From the NCBI RefSeq assembly GCF_031453675.1, contig NZ_JAVIZX010000001.1, positions 4,362,001 to 4,426,000 on the forward strand: 64,000 nucleotides of DNA, written 5' to 3'. Of the stretch, positions 21,832 to 38,784 are shown piece after piece. This stretch comes from Paracidovorax wautersii (GTDB taxonomy: Bacteria; Pseudomonadota; Gammaproteobacteria; Burkholderiales; Burkholderiaceae_C). Within the stretch, counting starts at the first letter, position 1; each line of letters starts with the position of its first letter. The translations under genes and the position numbers were made by a program. Under the pieces are notes generated by a model. That model saw nothing but the letters and a program-made list of their open reading frames with translations, was not told where the DNA came from and did not search any database.

Positions 21832-21891
21832 ATCAAGCATTTTTGACCTCCAGCGCTTACTGCATAAGCGCCAGCAGCTATCAATTTCAAA
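21832..21891 (+). repeat. short palindromic repeat, copy in the kynB-kynU gap
   Basis: One of the best-preserved copies of the family: ATTTTTGACCTCCAGCGCTT, then ACTGCATAAGCGCCAGCAGC, then TATCAATTTC. The core AGCGCTTA-N5-TAAGCGC is palindromic and is flanked by GACCTCC on one side and AGCTATCAA on the other. It ends about 14 bp before the kynU start codon. Confidence 0.75.
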
Positions 21892-37252: not shown

Positions 37253-37900
37253 TTACATCTCATCGATCGGGGTGGACCGGGCGTCCACGCCGGTTGCGGC
37301 CTTCCCCGCCGATGCGATGGCGAAGCGGTCGCCCGTGCGGAGGTAGAAGCTCGCGCCGAACCGCCCCACCGGATGGAAGTTTTGCAGCCGCACGCGCCAG
37401 AGTTCGGTATCTACCAGCCCATCGCGCACGGCCAGCCACTGGACGCGGCCGATGAACACATAGCGGCTGGGCGTCTCCAGCGTCTCGTGCAGCACGCATT
37501 CGAACGCCACGGGCGCCTCGGCGATGCGCGGCGGCGCCACGCTGCGCGACGGCACGGCAGTCAGCCCCGCGTGCAGCAGCTCGCTCTGGTCGGGCGGCAG
37601 GCTGTCGCCACAGGCATGCATGCGCTCGGCCATGGCCTCGTCAGTGATGTGGACGACGAACTCGCCGGTGCGCAGGATGTGCGCGGCGGTGTCCTTGAGC
37701 GCGCCGTCCTGCAGGCGGTTGATGCTGACCATGACGATGGGCGGGTCCTCGCCCACCATATTGAACATGCTGAACGGGGCGGCGTTGACGGTGCCGTCGG
37801 GGCCGAGGGTGGTGATCAGCGCGATCGGGCGGGGGACGATCAGGCTGGCCATCAGCTTGTAGCGCTGGTGGGGGGTGAGGGGGGAGAAGTCGATGTCCAT
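37253..37900 (-). CDS. flavin reductase-like FMN-binding split-barrel protein
   Basis: A 215-residue protein of the flavin reductase-like (FMN-binding split barrel) group. The FMN-site pattern is LMASLIVPRPIALITTLGPDGTVNAAPFSMFNMVGEDPP near the start, followed by KDTAAHILRTGEFVVHITDEAMAERM. Members reduce or simply bind FMN/F420-like cofactors; the electron partner is not visible. It stands alone between the LysR gene and the large palindrome, 210 bp from LysR with nothing recognisable in between. Confidence 0.82.
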   Translation of the reverse strand: MDIDFSPLTPHQRYKLMASLIVPRPIALITTLGPDGTVNAAPFSMFNMVGEDPPIVMVSINRLQDGALKDTAAHILRTGEFVVHITDEAMAERMHACGDSLPPDQSELLHAGLTAVPSRSVAPPRIAEAPVAFECVLHETLETPSRYVFIGRVQWLAVRDGLVDTELWRVRLQNFHPVGRFGASFYLRTGDRFAIASAGKAATGVDARSTPIDEM

Positions 37901-37942: not shown

Positions 37943-37999
37943 GGGTCAAATTGGCTTCTGGCGCTTATCTGGTAAGCGCTTGTAGCTATCATTTTGAAT
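37943..37999 (+). repeat. short palindromic repeat, copy upstream of the flavin reductase gene
   Basis: TCAAATTGGCTTCTGGCGCT, TATCTGGTAAGCGCTTGTAG and CTATCATTTTGA form a complete copy of the family: CAAAT-GGC side, GCGCTTA...TAAGCGC core and AGCTATCA side. It lies between the start of the flavin reductase gene and the large palindrome. Confidence 0.78.
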
Positions 38000-38020
38000 A
38001 GTGCTGGGTGATTACTTCTC

Positions 38021-38692
38021 GGGGCCGGGTCTCGCCCCGGCGGGCGAGGTGCTTTTCTTTGCTTCGCCAAAGAAAAGTACCCAAAAGAAAGGCGACCCTG
38101 CTGTCTGCGTCCCTCCGCTGCGCTACGGGCAACCTGCGGTGCTCGGTCGCGGGGCGGCGCCGTGGAACTCGCTGCGCGCTGGCGCGCTTCGCTCGGACAG
38201 CCACGGCGAGTCAGATCACGAAGCGGGTGTGTCCTGCGGCACCCCCGCCCGCCCCGCGCCCTGTGCTCCTCGGCGCATACAGAAGGGCGTTGGGAGTCCG
38301 CACGGGCCATCGCTGCGCTCGGCCCTTGTGGGGCGGCGTGCGTGTGCTCTGCGATTGCGCAGGCGCGCAGCGCCGCTAACGCCAGGCCGAGCGCAGCGAC
38401 GGCCCGCGTGGGGCGTTCGGGTTCCCTTCTGCCCGTGCCGAGAAGCGGAGCGCAGGCAGGGCGCATGCGCGTCGGAGCGCGCATGCCTCGTGAACTGACT
38501 CGCCGTGGCTGTCCGAACGGAGCGCTGCAAGCGCGCAGTGAGTTCCACGGCGGCCCTGCCTGCGCGAGCATCGCAGGCTGCCCCGTAGCGCAGCGCAGGG
38601 GACACGGGCAGCAGGGTCGCCCTTTCTTTGCTTACTTTCTTTCGGCGAAGCGAAAGAAAGTGAGTGCGCCGCCGGGCGCACATCCCGGCCCC
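38021..38692. repeat. imperfect palindrome of about 670 bp
   Basis: The left half (from GGGGCCGGG at 38021) and the reverse complement of the right half (ending CCCGGCCCC at 38692) match along nearly all of their length. Shared blocks include GGCGACCCTGCTG near the outside, CGGACAGCCACGGCGAGTCA in the middle (about 38197-38216 versus 38495-38514), and CATCGCTGCGCTCGGCC-like sequence close to the centre at about 38355. A-rich/T-rich pieces built on CTTTCTTT lie near both ends. Open frames occur on both strands but mirror each other and resemble no protein. The form recalls large intergenic repeats seen in Burkholderiales genomes. Confidence 0.8.
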
Positions 38693-38784
38693 GGGCAGCA
38701 AACGCCCCCTAATAACTAAATAGGAACCCGCCTTTGCTCTGCCACAGGCCATCCACGCCCCACCAAAAGGTACATTCCACCTCC

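Follow-up and report, generated by a model that had tools for sequence, protein, structure and literature searches.

A gene-free, imperfect palindrome of about 670 bp lies ahead of the cob operon of Paracidovorax wautersii, and it raises the question of what kind of element it is and what keeps it in place. The preliminary description of the locus argued that such a structure is normally deleted, and that its presence speaks for maintenance, recent formation or a protein acting on it. The window below is the whole analysed stretch of 64,000 nt; positions are counted from its first letter.

The palindrome and its copies in the genus

The palindrome is real. Its two diverged arms of 336 nt are 78.6% identical over 323 aligned positions, and the local inverted-repeat score is 224 for 38021–38692 versus at most 39 in 101 other 672-bp pieces of the window. 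The repeat listing of the window gives identity blocks at 38184–38259/38450–38525 (74%), 38127–38183/38527–38583 (79%), 38111–38129/38582–38600 (95%) and 38298–38324/38385–38411 (89%). The conserved element is slightly wider, approximately 38019–38705, with the ends set by eye on alignments of the six copies from this genome and of 27 copies. The flavin reductase gene (minus strand, 37253–37900, PF01613) is situated to the left. To the right lies a plus-strand gene with a nitrite/sulfite reductase half domain (NIR_SIR_ferr), which from the context we take to be cobG, and the position before the cob operon is as first described. The locus is also gene-free, as had been claimed: ORFs of up to 185 aa occur, but none of the frames of the module (see below) stays open throughout the 149 module copies compared. 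The two best remain open in 114 and 111 of them, the reading frames being broken by indels between copies. Protein coding was rejected, since no frame is open throughout this set. The features of the element are as follows.

38019–38705, no strand: whole palindromic element; conserved ends GCTTCCCGGGGCCGGG-like and CCCGGCCCCGGGAAGC-like, by eye on alignments
38031–38287, plus (module orientation): left module; right limit set by the closing stem; the opposite strand is predicted to fold best
38424–38681, minus: right module, inverted
38288–38423, no strand: palindrome centre; inner inverted pair 38298–38324/38385–38411
38031–38048, plus: outer GC hairpin H1 of the left module, with a T-rich run next to it; terminator-like for transcripts coming from the left
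38664–38681, minus: outer GC hairpin H1 of the right module; terminator-like for transcripts coming from the right
38046–38099, plus: core of the left module, 77.2 bits to the covariance model R1, of which this row is one of 43 training sequences; stem 38048–38061/38068–38081, loop 38062–38067
38082–38095, plus: purine tract CAAAAGAAA and tail; the tract mirrors the stem strand, the tail GGCGA pairs with the loop TCGCC; putative pseudoknot/triplex part
38096–38109, plus: closing stem P2/P3, 5' side (CCCTGCTGTCTGCG)
38274–38287, plus: closing stem P2/P3, 3' side (CGCATACAGAAGGG)
38613–38666, minus: core of the right module, 66.9 bits to R1; stem type C (CTTTCTTTCG); purine tract 38622–38630, tail 38617–38621
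37961–37989, plus: short separate repeat (GCGCTTATCTGGTAAGCGCTTGTAGCTAT) adjoining the left end, as it does in most other copies in the genome

The short repeat has the form GCGCTTAT..TAAGCGC..AGCTAT, followed by ATTTTTGA. Besides 37961–37989 it occurs at 21853 and 1633 of the window and at further places in the genome. By eye, it adjoins the left end of five of the six copies of the palindrome in this genome and stands inverted at the right end of two.

A search for other copies of the arm, which had been proposed at the outset, demonstrated that the palindrome is one of six full-length copies in the genome, which is a single contig of 4.57 Mb. In one orientation, the other five share 82–87% identity with the window copy; since all six match the query on the opposite strand as well, each is itself a palindrome. 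The proposed comparison with sister strains gave a divided answer. The element itself is present in all 17 genomes of the genus sample (16 of 16 apart from our own), but the window site carries no palindrome in four relatives (G003, G005, G006 and G016), and the flavin reductase region of these four also lacks cobG. The latter gene was found in one of the 17 genus genomes. Matches of some length were obtained in 24 of 40 relatives, and the scan of named genomes with a one-arm pattern yielded 109 stretches, mostly in Acidovorax, Paracidovorax and other Comamonadaceae. The retrieved loci contain 99 complete palindromes (at least eight of them the same copy counted twice) with an arm identity of 74–86%, 79.5% on average, and the order of arms is always plus, then minus.

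Forty-nine palindromes were available with flanks, 48 from the genus and one from G020. Thirty-eight of them fall into eight groups sharing both flanks, and 11 stand alone; the largest group comprises ten loci at a urt-type site (labelled by eye). Most palindromes are therefore old, with the window site counting among the young or special sites of the genus. The window copy sits where a conserved region meets the species-specific cob genes. Another copy of the same genome (2493293, L151) is located between cobW and cobN; two of the six copies thus border cob genes, which look acquired. The copy at 2.128 Mb is missing in 16 relatives within 1.5 kb past the conserved left gene. No exact empty site was recovered in the relatives examined for the window copy and the 2.128 Mb copy. 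Partial copies were seen to stop at contig ends (e.g. L157, L158, L161, L162, L209 and L210). Such truncation is seen at many contig ends; the palindrome thus interrupts assemblies, and counts of copies from draft genomes are underestimates.

Structure, covariation and pairing of the module

Each arm contains a module with a constant order of parts: an outer GC hairpin, a stem of 14 bp capped by a six-base loop, a purine tract and a tail, followed by CCC(C), the start of a closing stem that ends in GGG(G) some 70–230 bases further on. The module is about 200–330 nt long. The outer GC hairpin is missing in AT-rich carriers. Alignment A2 contains 43 rows from 46 modules; two modules were excluded for a shift of one base and one as degenerate. 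In A2, 94.4% of the 774 cells of the stem and the loop-tail helix are paired. The shuffle tests of the covariation, the loop-tail complement and the mirror rule described below overstate significance because the rows include related sequences; with this reservation, the covariation on A2 is 0.400 versus 0.124 after shuffling, none of 500 shuffles being as high, and it does not exceed 0.11 when the partners are slid. Two-sided changes are observed at all four loop-tail pairs of A2. The loop-tail complement amounts to 218 of 265, compared with the shuffled maximum of 175, and loop and tail vary jointly (CTTGTCC with GGACA, CTTCGCC with GGCGA, GTGGCC with GGCCA). For the closing stem, five of 40 modules were dropped beforehand; the duplexes of the remaining 35 modules with their own partners total −817.5 kcal/mol versus a minimum of −600.6 in 5000 permutations, a result that is favoured because the 3' partners had been picked as the best-pairing ones. 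By eye, hairpin loops bearing GGA, which we presume to be CsrA-like, are present on the reverse strand in several GC-rich families and in none of the AT-rich ones.

The purine tract equals the 3' strand of the stem read backwards. This mirror rule holds at 770 of 792 positions in 99 distinct hits, whereas the best of 2000 shuffles reaches 709. By stem type, A goes with AAAAGAAA in 72 of 74 cases, B with AAAGAAAA in 43 of 44, and C with AAAGAAAG in 32 of 33. Outside the set from which the rule was formed, CAAGAGAAAG is accompanied by AAAGAGAA in three loci, CAAAGAGAAG by AAGAGAAA in one, and CAAATGAAAG by AAAGCAAA at seven of eight positions in four rows; rows with CAAACGAAAG agree at six or seven of eight. 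A triple helix calls for such a mirror copy, which plain base pairing does not require. On the opposite strand the tract reads as a run of pyrimidines that is parallel to, and in register with, the purine strand of the stem. Triples of the U.A-U and C+.G-C types occur in known pseudoknots. By the sequence rule, the covarying loop-tail helix and the register-matched third strand of the module together have the make-up of an H-type pseudoknot with a triple helix, and we infer that an intramolecular triple helix may form within the module. Folding energies are lower on the reverse strand in 23 of 26 modules, the G-U counts in this comparison being about equal. Over the 99 distinct hits, A-C cells number 35 and G-U cells six. 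These observations weakly suggest that the folded strand is the one opposite to the module orientation; the choice is weak because the G-U counts are equal elsewhere and a single pair accounts for 24 of the 35 A-C cells.

The relative orientation of modules was tallied for 150 aligned hits (of 176 found) from 94 sources. Among 54 pairs of neighbouring modules, 47 are plus-minus, three minus-plus, two plus-plus and two minus-minus, while 49 entries are solo, some of these at the end of a contig or locus. Across the families, modules thus typically pair inverted and in a single order. The preliminary description allowed that the palindrome would be an accident if its arms were copies of a common single-arm repeat in many orientations. 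The arm did turn out to be a common repeat with solo copies in other lineages, but the orientation is fixed (47 of 54), so that randomly oriented independent insertions do not explain the palindrome.

At four sites shared within the genus, the identity of the arms within a copy is 0.789, 0.818, 0.799 and 0.808, and that of opposite arms from different species is 0.807, 0.821, 0.805 and 0.813; the former is the higher in 10 of 45, 12 of 28, two of 15 and four of ten species pairs, respectively. As the identity within copies does not exceed that between species, the arms are neither homogenised nor co-evolving. Both ends have the same stem type in eight of 48 copies, the expectation being 16.5; 19 of 5000 shuffles are as low, with the copies being related. 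The independent evolution of the arms and the rarity of same-type ends fit selection that acts on each module and disfavours a perfect palindrome. Hence, among the options named initially, maintenance is preferable to a recent accident, given the 38 of 49 palindromes at shared sites and the fixed order of the arms, but the preserved unit is the module. The palindrome as such is not maintained, because the two arms of a copy resemble each other no better than opposite arms from different species do.

Distribution beyond the genus

The 47-bp stretch at the end of the arm has 89–94% matches in records of Pasteurella multocida and Aeromonas caviae. In Pasteurella an inverted pair of 421 bp, with this stretch at one end, lies between dapF and a DUF484 gene; the inner sequence of the pair is different and AT-rich. 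The stem pattern with a free loop was found in 18 of 398 genomes of the phylum, and the reversed control gave none among the matches listed; a longer pattern was found in 17 of 369 genomes of the class. The covariance model R1 describes the 54-nt core and was built on 43 sequences, and its E-values are rough. It matches 103 of 369 genomes of Gammaproteobacteria at E ≤ 0.01. At E ≤ 0.0001 it matches 71 of 398 genomes of the phylum, 44 in the class and 27 outside it; these 27, with weaker candidate matches, all belong to one family (f51).

Paraburkholderia caribensis has at least 40 pieces in one record, and the arms of one of its copies (L411) are 92.6% identical. The unrelated genome G536 contains 11 copies with inverted repeats directed outward at their ends, and ten of these copies resemble one another right up to the far end, which suggests that the element may disperse in other hosts too. 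A solo module on a plasmid of Ilyobacter (Fusobacteria; L412, 2994–3045) scores 61.4 bits, suggesting a possible transfer between phyla; the record has six such places in all. Other solo modules are situated between dnaN- and recF-like genes (L293, 2278–2331, by eye) and between aceF and lpdA of B. cepacia (L414). No match to the element was found in phages, and one viral contig carries a solo module. No RNA family of Rfam 15 reached its gathering threshold in the window and 29 further loci (30 sources). TwoAYGGAY was considered and rejected: it reached 42.3 bits against a threshold of 43 at one locus (L288) and was absent in 20 further loci. No account of the module was found in the open-access literature.

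Interpretation and comparison with known systems

We favour, as the moderately probable explanation, that the palindrome belongs to a dispersed family of non-autonomous repeats similar to MITEs or BIMEs, each consisting of two inverted folding modules and recognised as a folded single strand. Each module would fold when its strand becomes single in replication, transcription or transposition. It would adopt an H-type pseudoknot to which a pyrimidine-motif triple helix of eight layers lends stability, most probably on the strand that runs against the module orientation, and a factor of mobility or maintenance would recognise this fold. Two modules lying inverted would yield the palindrome, whose arms would afterwards drift separately, each constrained by its own fold. 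Weak termination of transcripts from either side would be a likely side effect. A bolder version can be put forward tentatively: this would be a new family with a natural eight-layer pyrimidine-motif triplex in a pseudoknot, the third strand covarying letter by letter, that multiplies as a folded single strand and produces palindromes by copy-back of the folded 3' end, near-perfect when new (P. caribensis, 92.6%) and diverged when old (the Acidovorax group, about 79%).

The copies are short, non-coding and dispersed, as those of a MITE should be (six full copies, no conserved frame), and the arms form terminal inverted repeats, with further outward inverted ends in G536. No target-site duplication was seen by eye in the flanks of the G536 copies, and no transposase with the ends of the element, nor an autonomous partner, was found among the element loci examined. 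The inverse orientation of paired units (47 plus-minus of 54 pairs) is that of REP/BIME elements. A GTAG-type tetranucleotide at the foot of a 20–50 nt palindrome is absent; the foot columns 3–6 vary with compensatory changes. A count by hand gave genes of Y1/REP (RAYT) transposases in 76 of the 103 carriers, compared with 165 of the 266 non-carriers; these numbers do not support dependence on RAYT, and as some carriers lack the Y1 transposase, it does not seem to be required. Most copies in the genus are old residents, so that activity here would be putative. An autonomous version was also sought between widely spaced modules. The IS256-like transposase gene in L213 (4596–5855, by eye) is located within a palindrome and was read as a later insertion, and the pairs in L281, L317, L285, L355, L356 and L363 enclose various cargo with no common protein. 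The modules of these six pairs lie 1–3 kb apart with accessory genes between them, as if carried as cargo; by eye these include PAAR-like, methyltransferase-like and membrane protein genes.

Some of the same evidence would suit a structured RNA family, in which the module is a functional RNA (an sRNA or an RNA domain) copied by ordinary duplication, an inverted pair giving two divergent RNAs. Pyrimidine-type triplexes occur in RNA pseudoknots, and the covariation, the pseudoknot, the bias of stability towards one strand and the spread over the class all agree with such a role. We nevertheless regard it as somewhat unlikely: no promoter-like site was found in or beside the window copy, solo modules have no fixed orientation to neighbouring genes (by rough gene calls), no Rfam family reaches its threshold, and near-identical copies at many sites look mobile. 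Slightly less likely still is a bidirectional terminator or insulator kept at gene ends. The outer hairpins, each with a T-rich run inward, are the only two terminator-like sites in the scan, and the genes flanking 48 copies are plus-minus in 25 cases, minus-minus in 11, plus-plus in nine and minus-plus in three (with noisy gene calls). However, two sites are within chance (1.1 in shuffles, s.d. 1.3), the outer hairpin is absent in AT-rich carriers, the mirror rule is left unexplained, and copies lie inside apparent operons, among urt-type genes (L150, by eye), between cobW and cobN (L151) and next to dapF in Pasteurella. The earlier idea that the palindrome separates the cob operon from the genes on its left is plausible, the same region of the four relatives being devoid of both the palindrome and the cob gene, but an insulating role is only putative.

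The two readings closest to the preliminary description fare worse. It implied that the long palindrome itself functions, as a cruciform or one long RNA hairpin. Palindromy is present in 99 of 99 complete copies with 74–86% identical arms (at least eight counted twice), yet the arms do not co-evolve at the four shared sites and same-type ends are avoided. Mismatches between the arms include 1472 G-U and 1489 A-C in the 99 copies, which are not oriented by transcription; without a G-U excess, no strand is favoured for a long hairpin, and a long-hairpin RNA was rejected on this count. We consider a function of the palindrome itself very unlikely. As for a single-arm repeat having inserted twice side by side by accident, solo modules do exist (49 tallied entries without a neighbour), but the fixed order (47 plus-minus versus three minus-plus) and the whole palindromes common to up to ten loci at each of eight sites make it extremely improbable.

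The element is apparently a widespread, undescribed repeat, and its conserved unit seems to be the module rather than the palindrome. A family present in 103 of 369 genomes of the class, for which Rfam has no match at threshold and the literature searched no description, would constitute a large annotation gap; the element also breaks short-read assemblies and yields spurious open reading frames. If the triple helix is real, natural covariation would document a triplex in bacteria, and the variants found in nature could serve to test the rules of triplex formation in vivo; paired modules would test the tolerance of cells to long palindromes.

In the triple-helix pseudoknots of telomerase RNA and SAM-II, a stem has a pyrimidine loop lying against its purine strand, adjacent to a loop-tail helix. 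The module would share with them the pyrimidine run along the purine stem strand beside the loop-tail helix; it differs in its eight layers and in being a dispersed bacterial repeat, an RNA form of which is putative. We know of neither a pseudoknot nor a mirror-tract rule in REPs. Among the bacterial repeats, BRE, found via small RNAs, is likewise a repeat of Comamonadaceae (and Bordetella) and mostly intergenic; it is set apart by its description, being about 90 bp long and often tandem, with no inverted pair mentioned (PMC3110155). The R-repeats of P. fluorescens are also intergenic and MITE-like, with a bias to lie between gene ends (tail-repeat-tail); most of the listed R families are shorter, exceptions being R26 (352 bp) and R200 (320 bp) (PMC2718517). 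QMITE1 of Coxiella burnetii is the nearest bacterial MITE by description and is reported to have no relatives in other genomes (PMC5896051). Compared with BIMEs and REPs (PMC8266576), the module is larger (200–330 nt versus 20–50), has no fixed GTAG foot and occurs in carriers without a Y1 transposase. According to the same text, BIMEs and the REPs associated with TnpA-REP resemble the element in that they pair two palindromic units inversely around a linker and are dispersed between genes, and their units are thought to be recognised as folded single strands (PMC8266576).
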